This document shows, in pieces, positions 39,144-55,636 of a stretch of 64,000 nt of DNA. Position 1 is the stretch's first letter. Every line of letters starts with the position of its first letter. Where the stretch lies: contig NZ_JAKKUT010000001.1 in assembly GCF_029582805.1 (NCBI RefSeq), positions 124,001-188,000 of the forward strand. Reading direction: 5' to 3'. The stretch comes from Candidatus Synechococcus calcipolaris G9. Its GTDB lineage: Bacteria > Cyanobacteriota > Cyanobacteriia > Thermosynechococcales > Thermosynechococcaceae. The position numbers and the translations under genes are program-made. A model generated the notes under the pieces. That model was not told the DNA's origin. It saw nothing but the letters and a program-made list of their open reading frames with translations, and ran no database searches.

Positions 39144-41024
39144 TTAATGGGGACGCTGCCAGAAACAAAGTTCCCCGTTTTGATGCCCAGTAGCCAACAT
39201 TCCCTGACAATAACTTAACCCAAGACTGGTAATGGTTGCCCCACTCTGCCAGGTTGAAACCAAGGTATTTTGGACAAACGACCAGAGGTAAATGTGCCCC
39301 TGTTGATCACCCCGGAAAAGCCATTGACTATCCTGGCTGAGGGCAAAGGCATCTAAACTAAACGTGGATGGGCTAGGGAGAGAAAATTCCCCCAGGATGG
39401 TTTGATCCCGTACCCGCCAAAGCTGACTGCTCCCAGATAATGCTATCACAAGAAGATATTCACCTGTGGCTGAAAATTGTAGAGATTCCACAATCAGATC
39501 CGGTAAACTCCAACCTTCCAATAGGCAACCCGACTCTAAACTAAACAGACGAACCGCCCCATCGTCTCCCCAAAAGGCCAAAAGGCCGATGTCTGGACTA
39601 AAATCCGCCGGATAGGGCTTCGCCGCTAGGGAAAGCACCTCTAGGGGTTGGTTTTTGTCTACCTGCCAACGCATCATCTGGCGATCGCCCCCATAGCTGA
39701 CCAATTGTTGACCATCGGGGCTAAAGGTAAGGGCAGTCAGGGCCTCGTAGTGATCCCGTAGTGTCTTGCGGAGTTTACCGGAGGCGCAATCCCACAAGTT
39801 AATAATGGTATTGGTTCCCCCACTGGCCAGTAGGGTGCTTTGGGGATTAAAAACAAGCCGCTGAACGATGGCCGGTTTTTCCATGGCGATCGCCGGGACC
39901 CAGGGGGGAGCATGGGTTCCCTGCCAGAGGGTTTGGCCCTGTTCTAGGTGAAAAAGGCCCACCTGACCGTGATCATTACCCCAGGCTAAAAATTGATTGT
40001 GGGGTGACCAGGCCAGGCTACGGATTGGGTGTTTACCTAAGGATCCACGCCAAACTAATGACCAGGGAGCATGACTGGACTGAAATACCTGAGGGGATGG
40101 GGCCGACGGTTCAGAGATGGGGGCGGTGGCTACACCAGGGGAAGGAGACCAAAACTGATGTAGATCCCTGAGAACCATGGGGGAATGGCTATAGCGGGAC
40201 TTGAGGGAAATGGCCAGTAATCGATCCAGGAGTTGACCAAGGCGGGGGGAAACCCGGACGTTCTTGGGTAGGGCTTGCCGCCAAGCAAATCCATCCTCTA
40301 GGGGATCATAAAGGTCTGAGGGGGAGACCCCGGTGAGTAAATAAATGCAGGTAGCTCCCAAACTATAGAGATCACTGGCAAAGACGGCCTTGCCCAAAAG
40401 TTGCTCCGGGGCCGTAAAACCAATACTGCCAATGCGGGTTCCCGTCATTCCCGTTCCCCCGGTCTCGTACTTGGCGGCCCCAAAGTCTACTAGCATAATC
40501 AGGCCATCGTCACGGCGGCGAATCACATTTTCGGGCTTAATGTCTCGATGGATCACGTTCCCCTGGTGAACAAAATCCAGCACCGGCAGTAAGTTGGCCA
40601 ATAGTTGGGCGATCGCCTCCGGGGAAAAGGGCCCCTCTTGGTCTAGGGCCTGGGCCAGATTAAGACCATCAATAAATTCCTGGACAATGTATTGCCATCC
40701 ATCCTGATCGCAGTAGGCATAGAGATCGGGAATTTGCAGGTGGGGGCCAAGTTCTTCCAGACGTAGGGCTTCTTGGTGAAAAAGTTCGGCGGCCTTAGGG
40801 GAAATATTGCCACTCTCAGGACACAACTGCTTAATCACACAGGGTGGGTGGGAGGGTTTTTGCCTATCCCGGGCCAAAAGGGTGCGCCCAAATCCACCTC
40901 GCCCTAAAATTCTCTCCGCTTGATAGCGATCGCCAAGGCAAAGCTTTAGACCACAGGAGAGGCAAAACTTCGCATTGTCCGGATTGTGGGGTTGGACACA
41001 GGCAGGATTCAGGCAGTAAATCAT
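39144..41024 (-). CDS. Zinc-ribbon Ser/Thr protein kinase with WD40 repeats
   Basis: 626 residues. An N-terminal zinc ribbon (Cys4, Cys9, Cys21, Cys24) leads into a eukaryotic-type kinase: GRGGFGRT loop, VIKQL Lys, catalytic HRDIKPENVIRR and DFGAAKY. C-terminal residues ~315-626 hold WD40-type repeats (LVFNPQSTLLASGGTNTIINLWD, LTFSPDGQQLVSYGGDRQM...) forming a propeller. Family members are soluble cyanobacterial kinases; target unknown. The start at 41024 lies only 24 bp from foreign integrase-like remnant DNA (41048), so its native promoter may have been altered by the integrations at the tRNA site. Confidence 0.9.
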   Translation of the reverse strand: MIYCLNPACVQPHNPDNAKFCLSCGLKLCLGDRYQAERILGRGGFGRTLLARDRQKPSHPPCVIKQLCPESGNISPKAAELFHQEALRLEELGPHLQIPDLYAYCDQDGWQYIVQEFIDGLNLAQALDQEGPFSPEAIAQLLANLLPVLDFVHQGNVIHRDIKPENVIRRRDDGLIMLVDFGAAKYETGGTGMTGTRIGSIGFTAPEQLLGKAVFASDLYSLGATCIYLLTGVSPSDLYDPLEDGFAWRQALPKNVRVSPRLGQLLDRLLAISLKSRYSHSPMVLRDLHQFWSPSPGVATAPISEPSAPSPQVFQSSHAPWSLVWRGSLGKHPIRSLAWSPHNQFLAWGNDHGQVGLFHLEQGQTLWQGTHAPPWVPAIAMEKPAIVQRLVFNPQSTLLASGGTNTIINLWDCASGKLRKTLRDHYEALTALTFSPDGQQLVSYGGDRQMMRWQVDKNQPLEVLSLAAKPYPADFSPDIGLLAFWGDDGAVRLFSLESGCLLEGWSLPDLIVESLQFSATGEYLLVIALSGSSQLWRVRDQTILGEFSLPSPSTFSLDAFALSQDSQWLFRGDQQGHIYLWSFVQNTLVSTWQSGATITSLGLSYCQGMLATGHQNGELCFWQRPH

Positions 41025-41047
41025 GGATGGGGGAGAATGGATTCGTT

Positions 41048-41210
41048 AAAGCTCACGCCGGCCGGAGTACCTCGAACGCCCGGGGGGATCCGCTGTTGGT
41101 AGGGTTCAGTTTTGGGACTACCAGGTTTTGGGGGAGAGTAGTGCAGATTTCAACCGCCCATTAGCCTGATTGATCCATCCTTTCATCGCTTGCCTAAAGT
41201 TTGCCTAAAA
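41048..41210 (-). pseudogene. Remnant of a second integrase 5' end
   Basis: From AAAGCTCACGCCGGCCGGAG to GCCTAAAATTT this matches 55309-55530, the N-terminal coding part and leader of the element's integrase. It has many substitutions and an internal deletion of about 50 bp (the matching stretch is roughly 55392-55447). It lies outside the element's left att copy, next to the kinase gene. It is most simply the right end of an older, related element that used the same tRNA site and has since been lost. Confidence 0.75.
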
Positions 41211-41249
41211 TTTTAGCCTAAACCGATGGAGAGTAGGGAACTCGAATCC
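41205..41249. repeat. Left att direct repeat
   Basis: 45-bp match to 55637-55681 with one mismatch. It contains a copy of the last 22 bases of tRNA-Ala (41228-41249). TTGCCTAAA-type boxes lie on both sides. Confidence 0.85.
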
Positions 41250-41311
41250 GTTGAGCCAGCAGTATAAGCCCTATTCTAGCAAGGGTTACAAGCCCTGCCT
41301 AAAAATCTTGC

Positions 41312-41785
41312 CTAAAGTTTGCCTAAAATCAGCCCTTGATCCCTCCAATTTTGCCCTAAAAACATCGCTTTTTCAGCCTTCCGCCGTCGCTCCAAACCGG
41401 CCAATACCTTCCCATCAGCATAGACCCAGCGATCAAACTGTTTAGCTGCTTCAGCCTTATGCCCCTGATTGAGCAAAAACAACAGCGTAGATCGCCCAAA
41501 CGCCCCCAGACCAATATTGAAAACAAAGCTAACCAAGGCTTGCCGCTCCAGGTCACTCAGGGAAACCTGAACCAGCTTCATTAACCCGTCCTGGGCAATA
41601 CCCATATCCCGTTGCAATAGGGTGTTAGCCTCAGCCAGGCTCACAGTTTGGTTAGGGTGAATCGGCTGGCCCGTCTGTCCGATCGTCGCCCCCCATCCAA
41701 TAGTCCAGATTCCTGCCGGGCAACGGTAGGCCGTCAGAGACAATCCTTCAAAATGCTTAATCAGATCAGCAGCATCATCTAGCAT
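41312..41785 (-). CDS. GH24 phage-type lysozyme (endolysin)
   Basis: 157 residues that degrade peptidoglycan between MurNAc and GlcNAc. Catalytic Glu13 sits in HFEGLSLTAY and Thr28 in IWTIGWG, at the T4-lysozyme spacing. The position of the middle Asp of the E-D-T triad is Cys22 (YRCPAG), as in many lambdoid-type endolysins. There is no signal peptide or SAR helix, so export should need a holin. The last codons lie in the GCCTAAA repeats of the left att arm. Last gene of the leftward operon, directly after the M15 peptidase. Confidence 0.93.
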   Translation of the reverse strand: MLDDAADLIKHFEGLSLTAYRCPAGIWTIGWGATIGQTGQPIHPNQTVSLAEANTLLQRDMGIAQDGLMKLVQVSLSDLERQALVSFVFNIGLGAFGRSTLLFLLNQGHKAEAAKQFDRWVYADGKVLAGLERRRKAEKAMFLGQNWRDQGLILGKL

Positions 41786-41788
41786 CAG

Positions 41789-42166
41789 TCAGCCCCAGCG
41801 GCCCCGGGGCCCTAAATCCAAGTGGAAGTGGCCTGACCCTGGATAGACCCCAAACCCACCGGGCCAATCAATCAATAGAGTTCTCACCTGGGCGATCGTC
41901 ATATCCACCGCAAAATCTACCGCCAACCCCGTTAGATGGTGCGAATTACTCACCCCACCGGCCCGACTGTTCCATGGCTCTGGCCGATACCAACTTGTCA
42001 CCGTCCAGGGCTTACCTGACCTAGACCGATAGGGCTGGATCGCCTTGGCCAACGCCAGGATATTGTCAAAATGAACGACTTGGGCCGGAATCCGTTGCCC
42101 TTGGTGTAGGGCCTCCCCCCAGGTGAAATTTCCCCCAGGAATGATCGGTGTTCTTAAAAAACTCAT
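41789..42166 (-). CDS. M15-family peptidase (D-Ala-D-Ala carboxypeptidase-like)
   Basis: 125 residues. Zinc ligands are visible in SNSHHLTGLAVDF (H-x6-D pattern) and GHFHLDLG. SWYRPEPWNSRAGGVSNSHH is the standard peptidase M15_3 segment. It should cut peptidoglycan cross-links or stem peptides, complementing the glycosidase encoded 4 bp downstream. Phages often have one of these enzymes; having both side by side suggests a full wall-degrading cassette. The stop of the upstream holin-like gene overlaps its start by four bases. Confidence 0.9.
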   Translation of the reverse strand: MSFLRTPIIPGGNFTWGEALHQGQRIPAQVVHFDNILALAKAIQPYRSRSGKPWTVTSWYRPEPWNSRAGGVSNSHHLTGLAVDFAVDMTIAQVRTLLIDWPGGFGVYPGSGHFHLDLGPRGRWG

Positions 42167-42393
42167 TGTGATTCCCTGATGTGTTCTGTATAAGTACCGT
42201 TGCCAGAATTTAGATTGCTAAAAAGGAGCGTTACCTTAGTGATGTCCAACCCCAACAGTCCAGACACCAAAGCAATCAAAATAACCAATTGCCTGTTGTC
42301 GTTTTTCCGTAATTCGTCAATGTCAGATTTAATCCTATCCAAGCTCCTTTGGATGGAATCAACCTGTTTCCTTATTTCGTTCCAATCAGGCAT
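42163..42393 (-). CDS. Coiled-coil/TM protein, holin-like (XhlA type)
   Basis: 76 residues from ATG 42393 (MPDWNEIRKQVDSIQRSL), with GGAGGT ten bases before it; the longer frame from 42483 runs over the previous gene. A ~40-residue coiled coil (DSIQRSLDRIKSDIDELRKND) is followed by one membrane helix (LVILIALVSGLLGLDI). The same layout is found in XhlA-type lysis proteins, and the position just upstream of peptidase and lysozyme fits a lysis role. The length and TM count do not exclude other membrane anchors. Confidence 0.65.
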   Translation of the reverse strand: MPDWNEIRKQVDSIQRSLDRIKSDIDELRKNDNRQLVILIALVSGLLGLDITKVTLLFSNLNSGNGTYTEHIRESQ

Positions 42394-42715
42394 TTTCCAA
42401 CCTCCAGAAATTATCACCCTTAACCAACACTGAATTGGGATAGTACAAAACCGCAGTAGGAACCGTCCTATGAATCCGTTCATTAATCTGTAACGTTTGG
42501 GGTATTGCCTGAATAATCACGCGGCCATGGGGCAACGTCTGATATTTACCTACCCCTTTTTTGTATTCAAAATAGGCAAAATGCCGATAAAACCTAGGGT
42601 GTGCTTGCCAGTGTTGCAAAACAAAATAATCAGGTAGCTCACCAATCGCTTCTAATAGTGGGTCAAATTCTACTTTCAGACCGTAATTGGTATGATATTG
42701 ATAGTTAGAAAACAT
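42386..42715 (-). CDS. Hypothetical element protein
   Basis: 109 residues, no recognised family. Rich in aromatic and His residues (YFVLQHWQAHPRFYRHFAYF), with a beta-rich second half (GRVIIQAIPQTLQINERIHR, TAVLYYPNSVLVKG). No signal peptide or membrane helix. It overlaps the holin-like start by eight bases and the preceding gene by eleven, so it is translated as part of the late operon. Confidence 0.6.
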   Translation of the reverse strand: MFSNYQYHTNYGLKVEFDPLLEAIGELPDYFVLQHWQAHPRFYRHFAYFEYKKGVGKYQTLPHGRVIIQAIPQTLQINERIHRTVPTAVLYYPNSVLVKGDNFWRLENA

Positions 42716-43010
42716 GAATAGTTAACCTAAATTGTGAAAACAACGACAATGATAAATACCATACTGAATTACTCAACTGGGGAGGAATGAGCAAGATTTC
42801 CTGAGTATCCACAAATACGCTACCGGGTAATTTTCGTTTATAGATTTCATCTTCTATAGTTGTTTTTACGACAAAAGAGACGGGAAACTCTAGCCCTTCA
42901 TCTATCTCTAAATCAGGAGTAAGAAACAGTACATAATTACCGCCAGTGAATTCGCCAGTATAAGTAAAAGTATCCAAGAGAGTAATGTCATCATAAATAA
43001 TGGTACTCAT
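42705..43010 (-). CDS. Hypothetical element protein, beta-rich
   Basis: 101 residues with no family recognised. Sequence alternates in a way typical of a beta-sandwich (TLLDTFTYTGEFTGGNYVLFL, FPVSFVVKTTIEDEIYKR, LPGSVFVDTQEILLIPP). No signal or membrane segment, one chain end rich in Leu/Phe. It overlaps its neighbours by 4 and 11 bases. A structural role in a particle is possible but only from context. Confidence 0.6.
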   Translation of the reverse strand: MSTIIYDDITLLDTFTYTGEFTGGNYVLFLTPDLEIDEGLEFPVSFVVKTTIEDEIYKRKLPGSVFVDTQEILLIPPQLSNSVWYLSLSLFSQFRLTIHVF

Positions 43011-43438
43011 AGGTATGGAGTTAGTTTACTCATCGTTTTGTAGCCTTCGCCCTTATACCGACCAGTTTTTACATTTTGTTGATTGAGTATTTCCCTTACG
43101 TGAGCCTTGTTTAGGGGATTGGTAGGGCGATAAGGGACAATCACATCAAAACGGCTAATCTGTTCCTTGTTGAATGGATTATCTAGGCAGGTTTCAACGT
43201 GCCTGCACAGCAAATTTCCCTTGATGTCTTGGGTTATTTCTGTGATCAGCTTTAATCCAGCATCAATGACTGGATCACCCGTTTCAGTAGGCAATGTTCT
43301 AGCCGTGCTTAAGGTAGTAATTGGAGTTTGAATGTTTTCATCCTCCAGTACCTTATATATTCGTTGTCTGCCTATGACCTGGACATTAAAATCAAGATCA
43401 TAGATCATCACTAAATCCTTGTAACGTCTCGTAGTCAT
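43007..43438 (-). CDS. Hypothetical element protein
   Basis: 143 residues from ATG 43438, which overlaps the previous stop as ATGA; an ATG three codons earlier exists. No family recognised. It is alpha/beta in appearance (LVMIYDLDFNVQVIGRQRIY, GLKLITEITQDIKGNLLCRH, RFDVIVPYRP) and ends with a basic segment (QNVKTGRYKGEGYKTMSK). Middle of the leftward operon between two other unknown genes. Confidence 0.6.
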   Translation of the reverse strand: MTTRRYKDLVMIYDLDFNVQVIGRQRIYKVLEDENIQTPITTLSTARTLPTETGDPVIDAGLKLITEITQDIKGNLLCRHVETCLDNPFNKEQISRFDVIVPYRPTNPLNKAHVREILNQQNVKTGRYKGEGYKTMSKLTPYL

Positions 43439-43833
43439 TGACTCCAAACCTTAGTGAAAAACTGAGGAATATTATCACCAGTTAACTCGGTGTAGATAAT
43501 TGAACTATTTGCCGCTATTGCCTGGAAAAATTGGATAAATCTATCATTGTTTCCACGCCATGGTACAGGCACTTCTAGAAACATATCAGCAGCAATGGCT
43601 AATCTAGCCCTACGAATACTGGAATAGGGGATAGAGCATTGTCCCTCTCGATTGCTGCTAATCAATTGCTCTGGGAGCAGACACCAAGATCGCCAAACAT
43701 CAGGTAAAAATGGCTGTTCAAAGTTGTATTCTGAACTTTGTCTTGCCCCATCAATGATCAAAACTGTGTTGATGGCAACTTGATCAAAAACTACTCCCAG
43801 ATCAGATGTGTATTGAGTGATGTAGAGAGTCAT
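43435..43833 (-). CDS. Hypothetical element protein
   Basis: 132 residues from ATG 43833; a GTG one codon earlier overlaps the previous stop by a base. No family recognised. TLYITQYTSDLGVVFDQVAI and MFLEVPVPWRGNNDRFIQFF are notable; the protein looks soluble with mixed strands and helices. Couples to the following gene by ATGA overlap. Part of the late leftward operon. Confidence 0.6.
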   Translation of the reverse strand: MTLYITQYTSDLGVVFDQVAINTVLIIDGARQSSEYNFEQPFLPDVWRSWCLLPEQLISSNREGQCSIPYSSIRRARLAIAADMFLEVPVPWRGNNDRFIQFFQAIAANSSIIYTELTGDNIPQFFTKVWSQ

Positions 43834-43835
43834 CA

Positions 43836-44618
43836 CTAAATAGGAATCAACCCAGAGCCAGGATCACCAATTAGATTGTGAGCATTCCTGATTGATTCAC
43901 CTTTGTAGGATAAACACAATCCCAACGGAGCTAGGGCTTCGGCACATTCCGCCACCCCAGTAACGGAACTGACCGGAACTTTACGGGCGATCATTGGGCT
44001 GTTAGGTTCCCCAGGAGTACGCTCTCGATTGGCCTTTAGTGTCAGATGTCGAGGTCGAAAGCCTGGAATCGGCAACGTACACGCATCTTTGGGGCCTGTA
44101 TTTTCTAAGCACGTCAGAATGACAGAACTGATCGCATCTGGTAATAGTTCCACTGCGTATTTATAACGCACTTGGCCCATAACATCCGATGTGTAATCGT
44201 ACCCCCCTGTGAGCTTTTCGCTTTTAGCTCCAGTTGGCAGTGAGTAAGGCGTAGCGTTTGGAGTACCTCCTCCTGTCAAACTGGGAGGGATCACCCGCCA
44301 TTCTTCTCCATCCAAATCTACACAGATGACATCATCCCTGGCAGATAGGACGGCTATACAAGTGGGTACTTTAGACGGTTCATCAATAGGAAAACGGATT
44401 CGTTCACCTGTATTGAACGTCACCACTACAGCACGGGGTTTGAGAATTGAGGCAGAACCACATACTGAATCAGGCATCTCAATCTGAGCGCAATCCGTAA
44501 AGGGATCAAGCTTCCCTTCCTTCATCTTGAAACGTAGTTTCTTGATAGTGTGTAACTGCCCATTGACGATCAAATCACTTTTATATTCGACAACCTGACG
44601 GCTAATAATTGGGGCCAT
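43836..44618 (-). CDS. Hypothetical element protein, possible structural component
   Basis: 260 residues, beta-rich, without signal peptide or membrane helix. Segments such as EYKSDLIVNGQLHTIKKLRF, VVVTFNTGERIRFPID and VDLDGEEWRVIPPSL look like a beta-sandwich or barrel; nine Cys residues are present. The C-terminus is Gly/Ser-rich. I do not recognise the family. Size and position beside the 251-residue protein make it a candidate particle component, by context only. Confidence 0.6.
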   Translation of the reverse strand: MAPIISRQVVEYKSDLIVNGQLHTIKKLRFKMKEGKLDPFTDCAQIEMPDSVCGSASILKPRAVVVTFNTGERIRFPIDEPSKVPTCIAVLSARDDVICVDLDGEEWRVIPPSLTGGGTPNATPYSLPTGAKSEKLTGGYDYTSDVMGQVRYKYAVELLPDAISSVILTCLENTGPKDACTLPIPGFRPRHLTLKANRERTPGEPNSPMIARKVPVSSVTGVAECAEALAPLGLCLSYKGESIRNAHNLIGDPGSGLIPI

Positions 44619-44643
44619 TCTATTTTCCTCTCTTAGCCCTTAG

Positions 44644-45399
44644 CTAGATATGGTTGACATCAAGGGTTTGATCTTCTGGATCAATCAATTGCTGAATTGT
44701 GATCGCGTAGTTACGGTTAAATAGCGACAACAATGGCAACTCACTTGATTGGATTCCAGATAATGGATTAGGGGTGGCTGTCCAAGTAGCCGGAATGGTG
44801 GCCCCTGTGTTATTCCCAATGGCCCGAGATACGATCGCGCTGGCATTCTGGGCATTTCTCAACACAACGTTAGAAGCCAGGTACAAAACCAAGCTCCCAA
44901 ACCAAAGCCGTGAATCTGCCTCTACATCTAGATCACCATGGGCCGGTGAACCATGCGTAACCAGTAAGGAACTAGGAATCAAAATTCCCGCCGATCCAGT
45001 GGATGCTTCTGCATTCAGTTTTGAGGCATTAGGAAAAACATCATCAATAGCCAGACCACCCAAGCCATTAAAATTTCCAGTGGTGGGTAGAGGCACTGGG
45101 CCCATGGAGTTATTGGCATGATTGGCCAAGTAGCCAACAGTAGCGGTAAATTGCTCGTTAATCGTGTCTAACTGCGGGCCAGTAGGTGTACTTTTAATCA
45201 AGTTAAAGCCCAATGTGCCCGGATTACTCAGTAAAAATAACTGAATAGCGGTCAGAACAGCCAAAACCGCCTTACTTTCCTTGTCTGCCGCAGCGGGGGC
45301 CAATTCATCAGCTTCTAGCCCAGGTAAAGACGCAACTGGGAGGAAAACACCTTGAGCTACAGTGTTACCACTGGCATCAAAATATTCAAAATTAAGCAT
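44644..45399 (-). CDS. Hypothetical element protein, possible coat or fibre protein
   Basis: 251 residues, low in Lys/Arg and rich in Ala, Leu, Asn and Ser. Segments NFEYFDASGNTVAQGVFLP and LWFGSLVLYLASNVVLRNAQ suggest a mixed fold with strong hydrophobic packing. The low charge and small-residue composition resemble phage capsid or fibre subunits, but no family signature is seen. It lies 26 bp upstream of the 260-residue gene and 130 bp from a divergent small regulator-like gene, so a promoter is expected at 45400-45530. Confidence 0.55.
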   Translation of the reverse strand: MLNFEYFDASGNTVAQGVFLPVASLPGLEADELAPAAADKESKAVLAVLTAIQLFLLSNPGTLGFNLIKSTPTGPQLDTINEQFTATVGYLANHANNSMGPVPLPTTGNFNGLGGLAIDDVFPNASKLNAEASTGSAGILIPSSLLVTHGSPAHGDLDVEADSRLWFGSLVLYLASNVVLRNAQNASAIVSRAIGNNTGATIPATWTATPNPLSGIQSSELPLLSLFNRNYAITIQQLIDPEDQTLDVNHI

Positions 45400-45481
45400 T
45401 TATCTCTGTCCAAAAGACGCTAGTTAGACTATACCCTCAAACCCAGTCTGTGCTAGGCTTTCAGGAATAGTAACTAATGTT

Positions 45482-45497
45482 CGTCAGTAGTGACGAC
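45482..45497. promoter_or_regulatory. Small inverted repeat, possible operator
   Basis: TCGTCA-GTAG-TGACGA, a perfect 6-bp inverted repeat between two divergent genes and 35 bp before the regulator-like gene at 45532. It could be an autoregulatory operator. Confidence 0.35.
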
Positions 45498-45531
45498 ACG
45501 ATGATGGTTCATAGGTGGAAAGAGGTTAAAA

Positions 45532-45765
45532 ATGCGAACTAAAGGTAATAATTCACGCTCTAGTAAGTACTCGTTCAAGAGCAACTATCCGCGCTGTGAG
45601 TATAATTCCGAAGATTGGTATATCCCATTAACAAAATTCTGTCAGCAAAATTACTACACGCGATCCCAGGTGTATAAAATGATGAGAGATTGCAAAGTTT
45701 ATGTAAGCCAACACAAAGGACGGCTATTCGTGAAATGGGCTAACACCCATCAGCAGGGGGCTTGA
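45532..45765 (+). CDS. Small winged-helix/excisionase-like DNA-binding protein
   Basis: 77 residues on the strand opposite to its neighbours. A basic N-terminus precedes PLTKFCQQNYYTRSQVYKMMRDCKVYV, which resembles the helix-turn-helix of excisionase/MerR-like proteins, followed by a beta wing (KGRLFVKW). It could control the late operon. Its 3' end overlaps the 3' end of the 905-residue gene by 26 bp. The upstream inverted repeat at 45482 could be its target. Confidence 0.5.
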   Translation: MRTKGNNSRSSKYSFKSNYPRCEYNSEDWYIPLTKFCQQNYYTRSQVYKMMRDCKVYVSQHKGRLFVKWANTHQQGA

Positions 45766-48457
45766 AACATTTATTATCTGTTGGGTTCATTTCATCATCA
45801 AACAATACGATAGATGCCCTGACAGCTCTAGTAGTTTGCCCTTTTATTGTTCTTTTTGGGCTACCACCTTTAGTAATTCGTATTCGATAGTCATCATACT
45901 TTGATAATGATTGTAATTGCATTAAAACCCTGTTAGCTTCTTCTTCCGAATCAAAATATCCCCCTGTCCATAGTCTGCTATTTCCATCGAAAAATAAACG
46001 CCCATAAACATTACCTCTAACCCACATTAAAGAGTCAAAATGTTCACACCAGTTCAAATCTTCAATGGGATTAGGGATGTGGATATTCCAAGCCGAACCC
46101 CTATGTTTTGGATAATTCAACCCAAAGGTTATTACTAATTGACTTTCAAGGTTGTATTCCGAATAAACATCACTGGGAAGTACGACATTACAGCCATCAT
46201 CATTTTCATCCTTGCATTGCTCGATCGCTAGCTTGGCCATTTCATGGAATTTTTCCTGAGTCTCTACGGGTATCGCCCCTACCAATGTTCTGACTACCAC
46301 CGGGTTACTGACCGGGTTGCCATCCTCATCACATTCAATCGTAGGTAGCAAGACATTCTCGGTTGGTGGTTCCACGATTTCAGGAACTTCTACAATCCGG
46401 TCTACTTCTACGATTGTAGGAACTTCTATAACTCGATCCACCTCTACAATCGTAGGAATTTCTATAACCCGATCCACCTCTACAATTTCAGGAACTTCTA
46501 TAACTCGATCCACTTCTACAATCGTAGGAACTTCTATAATTCGCTCCACTTCTACAATCGTAGGAACCTCTATAACCCGTTCCACTTCTATGATTTCAGG
46601 AATTTCTATAATTCGTTCCACTTCTACAATCTTAGTAATTTCTACAACCTTAGTAGTTTCAATAATTTGAGGGCAATCATTGCTTTTATTTAGCAATTCC
46701 TCGAATTTTTGATTAAATTCTAAACTTAATTCAAAACATGGTTTATCCCCAGGTTGATTAAATGTGGGGGGACATGGGGAACACGGCAATACCATAGGTT
46801 TGCAATCATCTGAATCGGTTTCTATTTGAATAGGCGGATCAGGATCAAGGGGAGGAAATGGAATAGGAATAGGAATGGGAATCGGTTTCTTGTCTTTTTC
46901 TTGCTCTGGGGTTGGGTCAGTTATCGGAATCGGAATGGGAATGGGAATTTTGTCCGGTTCTTTCTCTAAATTTGGGTCTATTTCAGGCTTTACGGTGATG
47001 GGTAAGCCAATAGGGGCAGGTTTTGTGATTGGTTCTGTTTTGGGTTTAGTTTCTGGGATAGGGTCAGTGAGAGGTGGGGAATAGGGAACGATTGGGGCAG
47101 GGGTCGGAATGACAAAGGGGATCGGCTCTTTGTAGGGGTCTTTATACGGTTCCTGAAATGGTGGTAATTCTGGGGTACGGGTTGGTTGTTGGGGCTGGAT
47201 GTTGGGTGAAATTTCTGGACGGTTGGGGTTAATTGTTGGGGATGGAGGGCGATCGGGAATAACCAGCGGGGTGGTTTCTGGCTGGGATGGGCTAGGTGTA
47301 GCAGGGCTAAAGGGAGGTTTCCGGGGGCTATCCGGTAAGTTTGGCTTGCTGGGTTGAGGGGTCGGCCGGTTTGGATTCCGGGGGTCTTGAGTTGGGGGGT
47401 CGTTTGGGGGATTAACTGGGTTGGGGGTTGCAGGCTTTGGTGCAGGTGGGTCTGGTTCAGTTTGGGGGACTGGCTCAACGGGGGGCGTAGGCCGTCGAAA
47501 TGGCACAACGCCAGGGGGTAAGGGTTTGTCTGTGCCGGGATATTCCGGATCAGGAACACCAGGAGGCAATTTAGTAGGGATAGTGTCAGGAACAGTAGTA
47601 GGAGCGGGTTTTGCTGGTGCTACCGTTCCATTTTGGGGTGCTTGTCCTTGAGCGGGTTGGGGGACTGGCTCACCGTTGGATATAAACCTGACAGAAAAGC
47701 TAGGGTTAATATATCTAACTGTGGAAGTGTAACCACTGCTTTGAAAAACTTCTGTCCCATTCCCCGATGCCCCTACATTTTTTATAAACATCCGCTGTCG
47801 TTCACCGTCCCCCGTCCCACCATTGCTATAAATAGCGATCGTAAACGGGCCAGTGCGATTCCCTAGGTTGTAATCAGTAAATGATTCGTTATAGTAACTG
47901 CACCACCAGGGACAGGTAGCCCTTCGCCTGATTCCTGTAAAACGAATATTAACTGTAGTATTGGGGGGCACATAGTAGGTCGTTACTGGCCCATTCCAAT
48001 TAGGGTTAGATGGCATTGGTTCAGTCCCCCGATCAGCGTAGCCGCGATCTACTGGGGGAGGGTCAAACAAACGCCTAAACCTATCGAATATCTCACGCCC
48101 TTTATCTAATAGTTCCCTGGCCCGTTGTAGAGATTCCCTAGCCGTATCTGTGTTAGGGTCATCAATTTTAGGGATTTTGGGCAATGGTGGGGGCGGTGGT
48201 AGATCTGTTAAGGGGATTTTAGGCAATCCGATCGGTGGTGGCCGGTTGGGATGGGTGAAGTCATCATCAAAGTAATCACTTACCAAGGGTTGACCACCGG
48301 AAGGATTACCCCCCGGATTACCAGGAGCATCAGGTAAAAAGGGACTAGGGCGACCGGGTAGGGCTGGCTCTCCCCCAATGCCTATATCACTAGGGGCAAT
48401 GGGGGCTGGAACCATTGGGGGAGATGGGATAAACCCGATCGGGGGGATTAACGACAC
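45740..48457 (-). CDS. Large proline-rich protein with alveolin-like repeats
   Basis: 905 residues from GTG 48457, six bases after the previous stop. Layout: N-terminal Pro/Gly-rich ~100 residues; a helical piece (ARESLQRARELLDKGREIF); a beta-rich domain with Cys pair (CPWWCSYYNE, ~185-200); a very Pro-rich stretch (~265-560); a Cys-rich piece (VLPCSPCPP); seven 12-residue repeats of the type V-(E/D)-R-(V/I)-I-E-(V/I)-P-x-I-V-E (~615-700); and a C-terminal globular domain with LMWVRGNVYGRLFFDG. There is no signal peptide. Pro-rich shafts plus alveolin-like repeats suggest an extended fibre or spike with a folded tip. Largest gene in the element. Confidence 0.8.
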   Translation of the reverse strand: MSLIPPIGFIPSPPMVPAPIAPSDIGIGGEPALPGRPSPFLPDAPGNPGGNPSGGQPLVSDYFDDDFTHPNRPPPIGLPKIPLTDLPPPPPLPKIPKIDDPNTDTARESLQRARELLDKGREIFDRFRRLFDPPPVDRGYADRGTEPMPSNPNWNGPVTTYYVPPNTTVNIRFTGIRRRATCPWWCSYYNESFTDYNLGNRTGPFTIAIYSNGGTGDGERQRMFIKNVGASGNGTEVFQSSGYTSTVRYINPSFSVRFISNGEPVPQPAQGQAPQNGTVAPAKPAPTTVPDTIPTKLPPGVPDPEYPGTDKPLPPGVVPFRRPTPPVEPVPQTEPDPPAPKPATPNPVNPPNDPPTQDPRNPNRPTPQPSKPNLPDSPRKPPFSPATPSPSQPETTPLVIPDRPPSPTINPNRPEISPNIQPQQPTRTPELPPFQEPYKDPYKEPIPFVIPTPAPIVPYSPPLTDPIPETKPKTEPITKPAPIGLPITVKPEIDPNLEKEPDKIPIPIPIPITDPTPEQEKDKKPIPIPIPIPFPPLDPDPPIQIETDSDDCKPMVLPCSPCPPTFNQPGDKPCFELSLEFNQKFEELLNKSNDCPQIIETTKVVEITKIVEVERIIEIPEIIEVERVIEVPTIVEVERIIEVPTIVEVDRVIEVPEIVEVDRVIEIPTIVEVDRVIEVPTIVEVDRIVEVPEIVEPPTENVLLPTIECDEDGNPVSNPVVVRTLVGAIPVETQEKFHEMAKLAIEQCKDENDDGCNVVLPSDVYSEYNLESQLVITFGLNYPKHRGSAWNIHIPNPIEDLNWCEHFDSLMWVRGNVYGRLFFDGNSRLWTGGYFDSEEEANRVLMQLQSLSKYDDYRIRITKGGSPKRTIKGQTTRAVRASIVLFDDEMNPTDNKCFKPPADGC

Positions 48458-48462
48458 TTAGA

Positions 48463-48768
48463 CTAAGACTTAAATTCAGTTGGGATGGCGGTTGATCCTA
48501 AATCGTTTGCAAAAGTCCAAATTTTAGCCGCCCCACGCTGGAAGTTAGAGTCTAGCTTGATGCTATTGCGTCCAACGTGCCGCCAGGTGGCTGGATCGCT
48601 GTCAACAATATAAAAAAGCCCAGAAGTGGCAACTCGAATGGCTGTATTAGGGGCTTCAATAGCGGTCATGTTGGGGTAAAGATGATTCAAAACCATCTGT
48701 GACCATACGACTAATTTTTCTAGGGAGTTGACGCTGGAGGGCAAGTCAGAGGAAGCAAAGGCTGTCAT
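48463..48768 (-). CDS. Hypothetical element protein
   Basis: 101 residues from ATG 48768, preceded by AGCAGGA; the in-frame ATG at 48789 contains that ribosome site and is not preferred. No recognised family. LEKLVVWSQMVLNHLYPN suggests a helix and ATWRHVGRNSIKLDSNFQRG a beta turn region. It directly precedes the giant protein by six bases and may be its partner or chaperone. First gene of the late leftward operon, divergent from the small gene at 48819. Confidence 0.55.
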   Translation of the reverse strand: MTAFASSDLPSSVNSLEKLVVWSQMVLNHLYPNMTAIEAPNTAIRVATSGLFYIVDSDPATWRHVGRNSIKLDSNFQRGAAKIWTFANDLGSTAIPTEFKS

Positions 48769-48818
48769 AGGAAATCCTGCTAAGATCATTTTTATGTTAG
48801 CCCAATTATGAAAAGATT

Positions 48819-49022
48819 ATGAAAATTCACCCACAGCTAGAACAGATGATCAATACAGCCCGTGACCTTGTTTATGACAAGGCGTATCAGTCAGGCGATC
48901 CTATGCCTAGAAGTTTGGATAAGGTCGATATGGCGATCGCCGGCATCATGCGCCAACGTTTTGAAAAATGCCTAGATGATTTATGGGATCAGGTGATTAA
49001 AGAATTATCGGCCCAGGACTGA
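48819..49022 (+). CDS. Small hypothetical element protein
   Basis: 67 residues, helical and charged (LEQMINTARDLVYDKAYQ, IMRQRFEKCLDDLWDQVIKEL). No family recognised. The start is divergent from the late operon by ~50 bp and its 3' end overlaps the next (opposite) gene by 18 bp. The placement at the divergent late promoter suggests a possible regulatory role. Confidence 0.5.
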   Translation: MKIHPQLEQMINTARDLVYDKAYQSGDPMPRSLDKVDMAIAGIMRQRFEKCLDDLWDQVIKELSAQD

Positions 49023-49211
49023 TGACACAATGACTGTGACGGTGGCAGCGGCAATCAGGCTAAAGGCTAATTGAACGACCCATTGAGTCGCTTTTTGATA
49101 GGTCTCAAATTTTTCATTGAACCGATCTTGATGCTCCCCAAGGGTTTCTAGCTTGGAGTTGATCGCATTCAGGACTTCTTTAATTTCGTTGTCTGTTAGT
49201 TTGCCTTGCAT
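49005..49211 (-). CDS. Second coiled-coil/TM small protein, holin-like
   Basis: 68 residues: a coiled coil (IKEVLNAINSKLETLGEHQDRFNEKF) then one membrane helix (VVQLAFSLIAAATVTVIVSSVL). The layout mirrors the lysis-cassette protein at 42163-42393, but it lies in the repressor block instead. It could be an antiholin, a second holin, or a superinfection-exclusion anchor. Confidence 0.6.
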   Translation of the reverse strand: MQGKLTDNEIKEVLNAINSKLETLGEHQDRFNEKFETYQKATQWVVQLAFSLIAAATVTVIVSSVLGR

Positions 49212-49217
49212 AGTTGT

Positions 49218-49442
49218 TTAGTCGAACAAGTTAGGAGAATTATCATGCCGAAAAAAGATAGTGTGGATTTTTGCTTTCCAGTTTTTCAACGAGGATCTAT
49301 AACGTTTATATTGCTCTGTACTTTCTTTCTTGCACCCATTGTATTGATGTTCAAAACAAACAAATCCATCACAAAAAGCACAGTAATACTTACCGTCTTC
49401 GAGTATATCTCCATGAACGTAATATCTCTGTTGTTTCAACAT
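49218..49442 (-). CDS. Small putative zinc-binding protein
   Basis: 74 residues from ATG 49442. Cys residues in YYCAFCDGFVCFEHQYNGC form a C-x2-C-x5-C-x2-H/C pattern, likely a zinc finger. The rest is basic and helical (KYRYRSSLKNWKAKIHTIFFR-type end). The longer frame from 49529 overlaps the preceding gene. No family recalled. Member of the leftward repressor block. Confidence 0.5.
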   Translation of the reverse strand: MLKQQRYYVHGDILEDGKYYCAFCDGFVCFEHQYNGCKKESTEQYKRYRSSLKNWKAKIHTIFFRHDNSPNLFD

Positions 49443-49447
49443 GCTAT

Positions 49448-49597
49448 TTAAAGCCCTCTTTTGGGAGGCTGGAAGGCCGCAAAGTAGTACAGGGTCAAAA
49501 TGCCGATGGTTCCTAAGTTCTTGAGCCATGACCCACCCCAGGCATAGAGGGCAATTAGGGCGATCGCTACGGCTACTGTGGTAATGGTGAATCTCAT
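49448..49597 (-). CDS. Two-helix membrane micro-protein
   Basis: 49 residues from ATG 49597 (MRFTITTVAVAIALIALYAW), with two hydrophobic helices (residues ~3-19 and ~27-42) and a basic end (PPKRGL). The start is two bases after the previous stop codon (49599) and it ends six bases before the next ATG. Possible holin or membrane-exclusion protein; it resembles no family I can name. Confidence 0.5.
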   Translation of the reverse strand: MRFTITTVAVAIALIALYAWGGSWLKNLGTIGILTLYYFAAFQPPKRGL

Positions 49598-49598
49598 T

Positions 49599-49898
49599 CT
49601 AAACTCCTGGGGGTGGCCAACTATCGTCGTAATAAGAATCGCTTGCTTCTTCCGGTGGTGGTGTAACCAATGCTTCAGGGGAAATTTCTTCAACCTTGAT
49701 TTTATACGTCACCTTCAGCCTGGCCCGCTTCCATGTGCCGTCAGGTTGAATGACTCTCATTTCAGAAGGCTTGATGTAACGGTTGTTGTTTAGATTGCTT
49801 TCAATATCCTTGACGATTTTTCCAAACGAATAAACTGTATTTTCTGACCAAGGAGTGTTTGCCTCAAAGATTACTTCGTAGGAATCATCAATGTTCAT
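49599..49898 (-). CDS. Hypothetical element protein with disordered tail
   Basis: 99 residues. A mixed N-terminal domain (YEVIFEANTPWSENTVYSFG, MRVIQPDGTWKRARLKVTY) precedes an acidic, Pro/Ser/Tyr-rich tail (TPPPEEASDSYYDDSWPPPG). No family recognised. It starts one base after the repressor stop, so it is translated with the repressor. Confidence 0.5.
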   Translation of the reverse strand: MNIDDSYEVIFEANTPWSENTVYSFGKIVKDIESNLNNNRYIKPSEMRVIQPDGTWKRARLKVTYKIKVEEISPEALVTPPPEEASDSYYDDSWPPPGV

Positions 49899-50231
49899 CT
49901 ACACCCCTGCCAGAATTTTTATACTCTCATTCAAGACTTGAACTAGCTCATCCCTGGGTAGCAGCCTAAGGTATTTGAGGGCCTGTTCCTTTGCCCCAAA
50001 GTTTGGATTTGGCATTTCACCATCTAAATATTCGATCAATTCTTCAAGGGTATAGCCTGCATCAGTAGCAATTTTGACTAGATTCTCTCTCTCTGGGACA
50101 TATTGTAAATTTTCCCATCCTTGAACAGTTGTACCTGAGACTCCAAGCAAGCGGCCATAAGCTCGGTAACTTTTATTGCCCCTAGCCTGTTTAACAATCT
50201 TGGCCAACCGTTCTCTTGAGTCAAAGTTCAT
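49899..50231 (-). CDS. XRE-family helix-turn-helix repressor
   Basis: 110 residues. An HTH_3 domain (AYGRLLGVSGTTVQGWENLQYVPE) occupies residues ~20-65. The C-terminal half is a helical segment (AKEQALKYLRLLPRDELVQVL) without a LexA-type peptidase, so induction, if any, does not use RecA-driven self-cleavage. It is divergent from the early rightward operon across a 120-bp region holding the likely operators (50274-50290). It is the best candidate for the lysogeny switch of the element. Confidence 0.8.
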   Translation of the reverse strand: MNFDSRERLAKIVKQARGNKSYRAYGRLLGVSGTTVQGWENLQYVPERENLVKIATDAGYTLEELIEYLDGEMPNPNFGAKEQALKYLRLLPRDELVQVLNESIKILAGV

Positions 50232-50273
50232 TGGTGCTGTGCAAACTTAACTTATGCAACTACTTTACATAGT

Positions 50274-50325
50274 ACAAGTATATCAAGTGGTTAACATTGA
50301 CAAGCACGTAAAGCAGTTGTACGAT
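50274..50325 (+). promoter_or_regulatory. Early promoter and operator of the element
   Basis: ACAAGTATATCAAGTGG (50274-50290) matches 14 of 17 bases with 52592-52608. Just after it TTGACA (50297-50302), a 17-bp spacer and TACGAT (50320-50325) form a good promoter 27 bp before the RHH gene. The repressor gene diverges from the same region. Confidence 0.55.
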
Positions 50326-50351
50326 GCCTGATGAACTTTCAGGTGCAAAGT

Positions 50352-50501
50352 ATGTCGAGCATCACCAAAGAACGATTAACAATATTTCTGCCACCAGAAT
50401 TAATCCAGAAGCTAAAAATCAGAGCGATCCAGGAACAAACAACTGTATCAGACTTCCTGGCCCGTCTATCTTCTGAGTACCTAGACCATGCTGCATCCTA
50501 A
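50352..50501 (+). CDS. Ribbon-helix-helix (CopG/Arc-type) small protein
   Basis: 49 residues: MSSITKERLTIFLPPELIQ, with a beta strand (RLTIFLP), two helices and a short end (SEYLDHAAS). This is the ribbon-helix-helix DNA-binding pattern, in which the strand enters the major groove as a dimer. It starts 27 bp after the -10 of the early promoter and its 3' end overlaps the replication gene start by 14 bp. It may regulate replication or copy number as in plasmid CopG, and could bind the same 50274 / 52592 sites. Confidence 0.65.
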   Translation: MSSITKERLTIFLPPELIQKLKIRAIQEQTTVSDFLARLSSEYLDHAAS

Positions 50502-52389
50502 CCACAAGACTTGGAACGGATTAATGCTGCATCCTAACCTTTTGAATCCTAACCATTACCAGGAGTGGGATGATTCCGCAGTCAGGGCGGCGATCATCTC
50601 CCGTAATGTCTGGACAATCATTGACCCCCTGGAGCTTGATCAACTCCTGAACCTGAACAGCGATCGCCGCTGGAAGCACTCCGATCACCTTGTCCCTGGT
50701 TGGGCCGTCGCTGGAGTTGATCCATTCACCGGGGAACAGTGGCGGCAAGGGGCCCAGTATAAGCCAGATACGCCGCCTTTGCGTGATGGCAAACCCCAGA
50801 AATACCTCAGCAGTAAAGGGTATGAGACGGCCCCCCTATTTTTGGATATGGGAACTGACTACTGGAAAAAGGTACTAGAGACCAAATACCCGATCGTCAT
50901 TTGCGAGGGTGCAAAGAAGGCCGGGGCGATTTTGTCTACTGGAATAGCGGCGGCCATCTCAATCCCTGGAGTTTGGAATGGGCAAACCAAGGGGGAAATT
51001 AAGGAGACCCTCAAGCCCTTTTGTGGTGTAGGGTTCCTGGTTTATCTCTGTTTTGATAATGACCTGTTGACCAAGACCTCAGTACAGGCCGCCCTAGATC
51101 GGTTGGGGCGATTAATTTCTGTATTTGGAGCCGTGGTCAAGGTGATTGAGATTCCCCCAGGGGAGTTAAAGGGCATAGACGATTACTTGGCCTCTTTTGA
51201 CGATCGCTCTGGGGAAATGCAGAAATTGCTGGATTCTGCCCAGCCCTTTGAGCAATGGCGTGAACCCTTCCAGAAACAGAAGTTGACCCAGGAGCGTTGC
51301 AAACTAGCCCAACGCTATGAGCAAGCCCAGGAGATTCTAGGCGATCGCCTTCGATTGAATCTGCTAACCACAGAACTAGAACTCCATGGCAAGCCCTTTG
51401 ATCTGGATGAATTACAGATCCAACTAGCCTTACAGCATGATCTGCATATCCCAGATGCCCAAGTGACCAAAATCCTAACCAGCATCGGCAAGACCAACGC
51501 TTACAGCCCTGTCAAGGACTACCTTGATAGGGTTTTTGATGAATTTGGCCAGGATTCAGCCGGGTTTATCGATAACTTGAGCGATCGCTATTTTGGCACA
51601 GACAAGCCCATCTATAACTCCTATATCAGGAAAACCCTGATCGCCGCCGTAGCGCGGGCCTACCAGCCAGGGTGCAAGGTTGACACTGCTTTGATTTTGA
51701 AAGGGCCCCAAAGCATCGGTAAAAGTGAGTTTTTCAAGCGGTTGGCTAGTCCCCCTTGGTTTGACGATTCGCTGGGTAACCTCTCTGATAAAGATGAACG
51801 GCTGAAGCTCCATAAGGTCTGGTTTGTGGAATGGGCAGAACTAGAGAGCGTTTTTAAGCGTAGAGACTTGGCCAGCGTCAAGTCCTTCTTGACCTCTACC
51901 AGTGACCTAATCCGCCCCCCCTACGGCCGTACTGTTCAGCGGTTTGATCGGGCCAGTGTGATTGTTGGCTCAACCAACCAGGATGAATTTCTAGCCGATT
52001 CCACTGGTAATAGACGATTCCTAATTATTCCTTGCCATCAGCGGATCAACGCCGATCTATTGCAGGCAGAACGGGATTTGATTTGGGCTTCTGCCGTATT
52101 GGCCTACCGTGAAGGGGCCCCCCACTGGCTATCCAATGAGGAACAGGAAGAATCTAACCAAATTACCCAGGACTACTTGCTAAAAGACCCTTGGGAAGAT
52201 GTGATTCTCTCCTATGCTCGAATGGCCCAATATGTCACCACAGGGGAGATTCTGGACAACGTGATCCATCTTGACCTGGAGCGACGAACCAGGGGTGATG
52301 AAATGCGGATTTCTGGCATTCTCAAGGCCAATGGCTGGACTCCCAAGCGATTGGGGGCTAAAAAGATGCGGGTGTGGGAGCGAAAATAA
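50488..52389 (+). CDS. Replication protein: DUF3854 TOPRIM-like primase and VirE-like helicase
   Basis: 633 residues. Residues ~25-240 fit DUF3854: PIVICEGAKKAGAILSTGIA and LCFDNDLLTK recall the TOPRIM catalytic fold, ending KGIDDYLA. Residues ~370-600 fit VirE/VapE ATPase: Walker A LKGPQSIGKSEFF near residue 405, FVEWAELE and GSTNQDEFLADSTGNRRFLI. This primase-helicase is used by plasmids, phages and satellites. ATG 50488 lies inside the RHH gene; ATG 50524 is an alternative, and both sit in a direct repeat ATGCTGCATCCTAACC 36 bp apart. It likely acts at the iteron-like region just downstream. Confidence 0.85.
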   Translation: MLHPNHKTWNGLMLHPNLLNPNHYQEWDDSAVRAAIISRNVWTIIDPLELDQLLNLNSDRRWKHSDHLVPGWAVAGVDPFTGEQWRQGAQYKPDTPPLRDGKPQKYLSSKGYETAPLFLDMGTDYWKKVLETKYPIVICEGAKKAGAILSTGIAAAISIPGVWNGQTKGEIKETLKPFCGVGFLVYLCFDNDLLTKTSVQAALDRLGRLISVFGAVVKVIEIPPGELKGIDDYLASFDDRSGEMQKLLDSAQPFEQWREPFQKQKLTQERCKLAQRYEQAQEILGDRLRLNLLTTELELHGKPFDLDELQIQLALQHDLHIPDAQVTKILTSIGKTNAYSPVKDYLDRVFDEFGQDSAGFIDNLSDRYFGTDKPIYNSYIRKTLIAAVARAYQPGCKVDTALILKGPQSIGKSEFFKRLASPPWFDDSLGNLSDKDERLKLHKVWFVEWAELESVFKRRDLASVKSFLTSTSDLIRPPYGRTVQRFDRASVIVGSTNQDEFLADSTGNRRFLIIPCHQRINADLLQAERDLIWASAVLAYREGAPHWLSNEEQEESNQITQDYLLKDPWEDVILSYARMAQYVTTGEILDNVIHLDLERRTRGDEMRISGILKANGWTPKRLGAKKMRVWERK

Positions 52390-52410
52390 AAATTTATTTA
52401 TGTTTGAGGA

Positions 52411-52550
52411 TGGCCCAGGTTGGCCCACCCAAGCCGGTAAAGACTCCAAAACCCGCTCTCAGAAAGAATTTTGACCCGATCCAACCCTGGGCCAACCTAA
52501 AAAAGCAATTTTGCTTAAACAGGCACATGGGCCAACCTGGGCCAACCTAA
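52411..52550. repeat. Iteron-like repeats, candidate replication origin
   Basis: TGGGCCAACCT occurs at 52488-52498, 52528-52538 and 52538-52548 (the last two overlap with a 10-bp period). The inverted copy CCCAGGTTGGCCCA (52414-52427) is the exact complement of the 52528 pair. An AAGCAA/TTGCTT hairpin lies at 52503-52516. The region is non-coding and starts about 20 bp after the replication gene stop. Iterons next to a replication gene are a usual origin layout. Confidence 0.5.
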
Positions 52551-52582
52551 AAAGCGAAGTAAAAATTTTTTGCCCGATCTAC

Positions 52583-52635
52583 TTGACAGTGACAAGTGTA
52601 TCAAGTAATTTAAGTAGTTAATGTACTTGTCACTG
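52583..52635 (+). promoter_or_regulatory. Promoter and operator of the second early operon
   Basis: TTGACA (52583-52588), a 17-bp spacer and TAATTT (52606-52611). A perfect 11-bp inverted repeat, CAGTGACAAGT (52587-52597) and ACTTGTCACTG (52625-52635), brackets the promoter. The half-site ACAAGTGTATCAAGTAA (52592-52608) is shared with the repressor-side operator. A related ATAAGTTCATCAAGCAG follows at 52637. Confidence 0.6.
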
Positions 52636-52677
52636 ATAAGTTCATCAAGCAGTACCTTGAAAAATTAGGAGACCCCT

Positions 52678-53016
52678 ATGCAATCCCCCTTTAGCGGCGG
52701 CTTGGATCGCTTTGCGGCTATGTCCAGTGATGCCACTATGGCCCAGACCATGCTCTCCACCCTCATCGGTATCGGTATCGGTTATTGCCTATCCCAAGAG
52801 AACGCCCAGGAGCAACCCACCCCCCAAGGCAGCCCTAACCCCTACCGTAACCAAACCCCCATAGTCACGATCGTTGACCTGGAGCGTTGGGTCATGGAGA
52901 ACCAAGGGCAGTTACCCCAGGCTGAACGGATTCTACGTGACTTGGCCCAACTCCCCCAGGAGCAACGGGTCACACAGCAGTTAGTCCGTGACCTGCTCCC
53001 CCCTGCCCGTCGCTAA
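52678..53016 (+). CDS. Hypothetical element membrane protein
   Basis: 112 residues. TMAQTMLSTLIGIGIGYCLSQ gives one likely membrane or amphipathic helix at residues ~20-42, followed by a Gln/Pro-rich stretch and a helical end (ERILRDLAQLPQEQRVTQQL). A TTAGGAG ribosome site precedes ATG. First gene of the operon controlled from 52583. No family recognised. Confidence 0.6.
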   Translation: MQSPFSGGLDRFAAMSSDATMAQTMLSTLIGIGIGYCLSQENAQEQPTPQGSPNPYRNQTPIVTIVDLERWVMENQGQLPQAERILRDLAQLPQEQRVTQQLVRDLLPPARR

Positions 53017-53030
53017 CCGCCCATGAAAAA

Positions 53031-53048
53031 GGGGCCCCTAGAGGCCCC
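53031..53048 (-). terminator. Possible leftward terminator hairpin
   Basis: GGGGCC-CCTAGA-GGCCCC (53031-53048). On the minus strand it is followed by TTTTT, so it would stop leftward transcription; on the plus strand there is no U-run. Confidence 0.35.
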
Positions 53049-53084
53049 ACCCATTAGTTTGTGAACATTTAAGGAGATTTTACT

Positions 53085-53297
53085 ATGACTATGCGCCCTG
53101 CCCATATTCCCGTTACCCCCCTTGTCCTGGCGGCAGAGCAACAGGCCAAGCTGGAGGCCCGCTTACGGGATTCCATCACCGTTTTTCTCGCTGACCCACG
53201 CGCTTTGGAGGTTGAAGCGATCGCTGAGATAGCCGCCCAATATAAACAGGCCACTGAGGCCTATTGGCAGACATTTGCAGAAACCCACGGTTTATAA
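53085..53297 (+). CDS. Hypothetical element protein
   Basis: 70 residues, mostly helical (AAEQQAKLEARLRDSITVFL, AIAEIAAQYKQATEAYWQTF). No family recognised. TAAGGAGATTTTACT places a fair ribosome site before ATG 53085. A rho-independent terminator follows its stop within 10 bp, so it probably closes the first early transcript. Confidence 0.55.
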   Translation: MTMRPAHIPVTPLVLAAEQQAKLEARLRDSITVFLADPRALEVEAIAEIAAQYKQATEAYWQTFAETHGL

Positions 53298-53303
53298 CCT
53301 GCA

Positions 53304-53326
53304 CAGGCCCCCCTTGGGGCTTTTTT
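53304..53326 (+). terminator. Rho-independent terminator
   Basis: AGGCCCC-CCTT-GGGGCTTTTTTT: a 7-bp stem including one G.T pair, a 4-nt loop and a run of T residues, directly after the 70-residue gene. Confidence 0.75.
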
Positions 53327-53349
53327 TGTACCTAAATTTGGAGGAAAAA

Positions 53350-53565
53350 ATGGAAGAAATACTAGACAAAGAGTTTTTACTTCTTGTCAAGAACATCAAG
53401 AAAGTAGCTGATCAATATGGGTTCTATCTCCCCCAATTTTGTAAAAAACTGCGCGATAGCCAAACAGCCCGTGATGCCTTTCTACAGCGATACTCACGCC
53501 GCCGCCGCGCCGAAATTGCCATGATGCTCCCCCAAGCCCTGGAGGTTATAGAAAATGAGTTCTAG
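53350..53565 (+). CDS. Hypothetical element protein, helical and basic
   Basis: 71 residues from ATG 53350 (MEEILDKEFLLLVKNIKK), preceded by GGAGG; the longer frame from 53275 crosses the terminator and is rejected. Helical, with a basic stretch (LQRYSRRRRAEIAMML) that suggests nucleic-acid binding. Its 3' end overlaps the next gene by 11 bp. Confidence 0.55.
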   Translation: MEEILDKEFLLLVKNIKKVADQYGFYLPQFCKKLRDSQTARDAFLQRYSRRRRAEIAMMLPQALEVIENEF

Positions 53566-53764
53566 ACATTCCCCAGCATTCCCTAGTGACGCAAGGCTTG
53601 AAGATCGTTATGAAGGGTTAAGCAAGCGTGAATTTGCCTTAATTCTATTTTTAGCGGCTTATCTAATCGGAGAAACTGAAGCGGGCCGATTCCGCTTAGA
53701 AGCATTAAAGGCAATTGCCAGACAAGTTGATGATTTGTTTGACTTTCTAGAGCAAGATTTTTAG
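53555..53764 (+). CDS. Hypothetical element protein
   Basis: 69 residues with a hydrophobic central segment (EFALILFLAAYLIGETE) which may be a buried helix rather than a membrane span, and an acidic end (QVDDLFDFLEQDF). No family recognised. Overlaps the gene before it and ends four bases before the excisionase-like gene. Confidence 0.5.
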   Translation: MSSRHSPAFPSDARLEDRYEGLSKREFALILFLAAYLIGETEAGRFRLEALKAIARQVDDLFDFLEQDF

Positions 53765-53768
53765 AGCA

Positions 53769-53966
53769 ATGTGGAAACAGACTAGAGACACTGCTAAGGC
53801 TCTAGGCATATCCCCTAGACAATTGCGCCTATTGCGCTCTAGGGGATTGTTTCAGCTAGGGCGTGAATATCGGATCATTACTCCCCCTGGAGCAATGCGG
53901 CCCACCTATCAATGGAATCTAAAAGCCATTGAAAAATGCCTTATCAAACGTTTGGAGAATCGATAA
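53769..53966 (+). CDS. Excisionase-like (Xis) winged-helix protein
   Basis: 65 residues. TRDTAKALGISPRQLRLLRSRG is a MerR/Xis-type helix-turn-helix, followed by a wing (FQLGREYRIITPPG) and a final helix. Small proteins of this shape direct integrases to excise. It lies about 440 bp from the integrase gene, which is convergent. Its TAA overlaps the next ATG as TAATG. Confidence 0.6.
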   Translation: MWKQTRDTAKALGISPRQLRLLRSRGLFQLGREYRIITPPGAMRPTYQWNLKAIEKCLIKRLENR

Positions 53967-55497: not shown

Positions 55498-55500
55498 CGC

Positions 55501-55565: not shown

Positions 55566-55636
55566 AATAATTCTTAAAGATTCCTAAATCCCATACCTAG
55601 ACTGGCTTCCTAACCATTTTAGGTTGTTTGAGCCTT

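Follow-up and report, generated by a model that had tools for sequence, protein, structure and literature searches.

Tandem accretion of integrative elements, as outlined in PMC5704250, proceeds in three steps, namely integration, decay, and arrival of a newcomer at the att site carrying the gene end, which results in a chimerical att. The locus described here resembles that outline: a probably older element (B) is decayed, a newer one (A) uses the att at the gene end and a chimerical att is shared between both. It departs from the scheme as sketched there, since within the window (the whole 64-kb stretch of DNA that was analysed) an outer att of B could not be recognised, the sequence of B that could be recognised amounted to about 165 bp only, and no conjugation genes were recognised among the element proteins searched here. 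At ssrA of Dehalococcoides, as summarised in PMC3146451, several islands lie in tandem, and at each of them the 3' end of the RNA gene is repeated as a mark. Tandem placement behind one RNA gene and the lack of integration genes in some islands recall the present case, but the Dehalococcoides islands form longer chains and employ serine recombinases, in contrast to the tyrosine integrase found here. The mechanism, tandem accretion with decay, is already known; the case at this locus is new.

Two plasmids, NZ_CP016485 (Picosynechococcus, 13.2 kb) and NZ_CP046059 (17.3 kb), encode an integrase 39-40 % identical to that of A together with an HTH regulator, as A does, and NZ_CP046059, like A, also encodes a VapE protein. 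NZ_CP016485 shares with A the succession of arm pair, tRNA 3' end, arm pair and integrase start; its core reads as a tRNA 3' end (our own reading), and ARAGORN detected no whole tRNA there. Unlike A, both plasmids are circular, show low identity and carry other cargo.

The features of the locus were the following:
39144-41024, minus strand: WD40-repeat Ser/Thr kinase, next gene downstream of B, either of host origin or once cargo of B
41048-41186, minus strand: 5' coding remnant of the B integrase, start codon at 41184-41186, 49-bp deletion near 41135-41145, frame broken
41187-41226, minus strand: leader remnant of the B integrase, 121 bp gone between AAATTTTAG repeats
41189-41211, minus strand: arm-type direct-repeat pair of B, 23 bp identical to the distal pair of A
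41205-41249, minus strand: left att core, made up of 23 bp from the 3' end of tRNA-Ala and 22 further bp
41250-55636, no strand assigned: element A, about 14.4 kb
41307-41329, minus strand: distal arm-type pair of A, 57 bp from the core
50488-52389, plus strand: VapE/DUF3854 primase-helicase of A
54403-55497, minus strand: tyrosine integrase of A, 364 aa, intact
55500-55522, minus strand: arm-type pair in the integrase leader of A
55637-55681, minus strand: right att core, taking in the tRNA 3' end
55659-55731, minus strand: tRNA-Ala(CGC), the target

Read on the minus strand, the order was tRNA, att, A, att, remnant B and kinase. The two att cores were identical at 44 of 45 positions (window self-BLAST). 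B lay directly outside the left core of the intact element, and this core was shared, being bordered by the distal arm of A on one side and by the leader of B on the other. Att core, leader and integrase start were contiguous in B, and the same succession was present in A next to the tRNA. The newer-looking copy was the one next to the tRNA, where the integrase of A is intact, with the decayed B outside. No third att core was found within the window, the best other place agreeing at 25 of 46 positions, the same as in a reversed control; a DNA search of the whole genome returned no further att core on the contig of the window. B does not fit the definition of a CIME (cis-mobilizable element), which retains both attL and attR once its integration genes are lost, as no outer att was found in the window.

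Two blocks of the window matched each other in self-BLAST: 41048-41134 with 55309-55395 (92.0 % over 87 bp, E 3.9e-28) and 41145-41213 with 55456-55524 (94.2 % over 69 bp, E 3.9e-23). The stretch 41048-41213 was a copy, in decayed form, of the A integrase leader and the gene's 5' end, with a 49-bp gap in the coding part and small indels between the blocks. The leader of B was also 121 bp shorter, and the loss sat between two copies of the 9-bp AAATTTTAG, which flanks both ends of the corresponding stretch in A; the arm pair of B consequently nearly abuts its att core. MAFFT misplaced the att core of B across this leader deletion, and the gap was taken instead from BLAST, leader comparison and spacing. 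Only the N-terminal part of the integrase was retained in B (codons up to 62 of 364). The A integrase displayed the tyrosine recombinase domain PF00589 at residues 276-340 (Pfam, E 6.5e-8, 33 bits against a cut-off of 27.1). The first-pass annotation had reported a worn copy of the integrase 5' end and leader outside the left att, with a deletion of ~50 bp, abutting the kinase gene in the order remnant, att, element, att and tRNA; each of these points was borne out, and the leader deletion had escaped it.

A and B differed at 11 of 156 aligned bases (7.1 %). Over 42 comparable codons, B displayed five amino-acid changes (E2K, R4W, S41P, A51P and L52P) and three silent codon differences, one of which was a double change at an arginine. 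L52 was invariant in all six aligned integrases, R4 was common to A and its two nearest relatives, and A51 to A and the nearest; the change in B of residues conserved in relatives indicates that B had decayed. Counted by site, four of about 31 silent and five of about 95 replacement sites had changed, a difference that is not significant with so few sites (Fisher p 0.22). A had changed too, as seen from its leader, in which it alone differed at two bases where B agreed with a leader beside tRNA-Glu, the leader of G019 agreeing with B at one of them. The tRNA-Glu leader was a scrap in the own genome and included the start codon (C2:211589-211707). The divergence was thus uneven in kind, with damaging changes (L52P) in B and departures of A from B and the two other leaders. 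Dating the two copies by their divergence had been proposed; the comparison gave a ranking of the copies by damage rather than an age. Integrase relatives for polarising the differences were absent from viral contigs, and three were supplied by genome contigs (50-55 % identity). Phage records matched neither the DNA at 40900-41400 nor the A integrase, and a VapE scan of viral contigs yielded nothing confirmed.

We consider it likely that an older relative of A integrated at tRNA-Ala(CGC) and had decayed before A arrived, B being what survives of its integrase-side end. This close relative of A would have entered the tRNA gene at its 3' end and been eroded by deletions, which cut the integrase short next to the kinase gene and removed a further 49 bp inside the fragment and 121 bp between the two leader repeats. 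A would later have integrated at the tRNA 3' end by site-specific recombination, so that the tRNA was made whole again at one end of A, while at the other end the former tRNA 3' fragment and the remnant of B came to lie 14.4 kb away. Insertion of A into a tRNA gene already bearing a decayed relative would leave exactly the order seen. Tandem accretion at one tRNA, as suggested in the first-pass annotation, is supported by order, orientation and register, all of which fit an older second element; the order of events and an independent insertion of B are inferred. Against this explanation, no outer att of B was found in the window and no empty site in the relatives surveyed, and the comparison of silent with replacement sites was too small to reach significance. 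The same tRNA gene was probably invaded at least twice, and repeated use of one tRNA gene by a family of cyanobacterial integrase/VapE elements of 12-17 kb is thereby documented.

The site is also used elsewhere by the family of A, since G019 displayed at the same tRNA-Ala an integrase 65 % identical to that of A, the only such case behind this tRNA in a survey for empty sites; the attL of the G019 element was not found in 35 kb. The survey started from the lipoprotein gene that neighbours the tRNA: of 24 loci of this gene, own locus included, 20 had tRNA-Ala next to it. Behind the tRNA, relatives (other genera) carried sequences unlike the window locus, some agreeing with each other, and no empty site was found among them.

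The kinase was identified as a Pkinase/WD40 protein (Pfam). Its open reading frame, on the minus strand, starts at 41024 and is separated from the B match by 23 bp, and within these 23 bp identity with the integrase 3' end was not demonstrable. The kinase may have directly followed the integrase of B, remnant and kinase then forming one decayed island. This would be compatible with an older relative at the tRNA, and we lean slightly against it. Full-length relatives of the kinase were rare, being present at strict limits in two of 29 family genomes and two of 388 genomes of the class, own genome included (class-wide scan with E up to 1e-120, three candidates per genome scored). Both full-length kinases adjoin an integrase, which is suggestive; in G026, which has the other one, an integrase of the same superfamily ends 3 bp ahead of the kinase start, yet that integrase is only about 38 % identical to the one of A. 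Speaking further against an island, HIP1 density in the kinase was host-like (21 per 10 kb, compared with 14 for host DNA and 6 for A), and the neighbouring DUF4340 gene occurred in 27 of 29 family genomes. This wide occurrence implies that host DNA starts at most one gene beyond the kinase; upstream neighbours of DUF4340 differed in relatives where comparison was possible. That B and the kinase represent a mobile integrase-kinase unit, a rare WD40 kinase travelling directly behind cyanobacterial integrases of the family of A, outliving its element at tRNA-Ala and left there after the leader of a dead integrase, is a doubtful extension of the same idea. A kinase promoter within B was considered and rejected: the one weak promoter-like site, against 0.3 expected, lay inside A rather than B.

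Successive or concatemeric insertions might also have produced a tandem dimer of the own lineage of A, of which B would be the outer, later decayed copy. B was by far the closest sequence to the A integrase in all searches, order and orientation are those expected of a dimer, and a decayed outer copy would look similar. The divergence of 7 % with changes on both lineages, including the two leader bases peculiar to A, and the presence beside B of a kinase absent from A make this origin improbable, and an older independent relative remains the preferred reading.

Arm-type repeats bear on the state of the left junction. A direct-repeat pair (ATTTTAGGCAAACTTTAGGCAAG) was located in the distal arm of A, and a near copy of it in the A leader, at a distance of 136 bp to the core and only 2 bp ahead of the integrase gene; allowing up to three mismatches, such pairs occurred at three places of the window only, the third being B. 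A further element of the family, C, was located in the own genome at the groEL 3' end (C2 about 743.8-756.4 kb, 12.6 kb), with an integrase 54-56 % identical to that of A. Arm pair, core, arm pair and integrase start form a conserved plan across A, C and NZ_CP016485, in which the distal arm lies 57, 50 and 72 bp from the core, and the leader arm 136, 135 and 118 bp from it, respectively. Judged by their position and repetition, the pairs are putative binding sites of the integrase. This anatomy, with its conserved spacing, allows further members and fossils to be found. In B the core-to-leader-arm spacing had collapsed to 15 bp, as against 118-136 bp in the other three, and its arm is therefore probably dead. 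The left junction, which unites the distal arm of A, the core and the leader arm of B, has all three parts of an attP, and a chimerical att between tandem elements was functional in a published case, as reported in PMC5704250; with the collapsed spacing, a working composite attP able to catch or release elements is nevertheless very unlikely.

Although B adjoins the att site, it can hardly be a local duplication made as a by-product of the integration reaction when A inserted: no copy of the C leader and 5' integrase was found in 5.6 kb beyond the distal att of C (one case) by a test that does find B beyond A, the 7 % between A and B includes amino-acid replacements, as against a single difference in the 45 positions of the att cores, and no site-specific recombination of such kind is known to copy 165 bp. 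A simple local duplication with equal divergence throughout, the alternative named in the first-pass annotation, is disfavoured by this control and by the uneven kind of divergence.

Element A carried endolysin-type genes besides VapE. Of the genes that would mark a prophage or phage satellite, namely those for capsid, portal and terminase, none was recognised among 10 (PHROGs) and 18 (Pfam) element proteins. Structure models of two A proteins of no assigned function were set aside, their mean pLDDT being 34. A 905-aa proline-rich protein (window 45740-48457) displayed a run of about 12-residue repeats and is possibly structural; over 117 residues it shared 70 % identity with a protein encoded by element C. 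C appeared complete (L037:7793 to L171:1397) and carried a VapE-like protein, a lysis-like protein (read from its translation) and this relative of the 905-aa protein; it shared a 518-bp block with A at 91 %.

An integrase match was present in 18 of 29 family genomes, own included. Another scrap in the own genome consisted of 107 bp of distal arm (93 %) beside ychF, at C2:1232914-1233020. The 13-mer GGATGCCCCGTCC occurred in exactly two genomic copies, at L038:7146-7183 (G000 C2:578146-578183) and L040:7414-7529 (C2:1232914-1233029). At the former, between cobO and ftsH, it adjoined the integrase-side half of an att core; at the latter, beside ychF, it adjoined a distal arm of the family of A (gene names read from translations). 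These sites look like the two ends of one secondary-site insertion, separated today by 655 kb and oriented alike; if a single insertion underlies both, the chromosome would have been rearranged. Among 27 relatives, none had cobO within 1.5 kb of ychF.

Behind tRNA-Ala of G011 (L061, complement of 1200-1400), the tRNA 3' end was partly repeated at once (ATTCTCCATTCCCTTATTCTCCATTGATA), a repeat that an element since lost may have left as a scar. In genus g11 (L016-L023, L030), most genomes carried one integrase of about 40 % identity, which overlapped or abutted a P-type ATPase gene in several cases and is perhaps a resident integrase.
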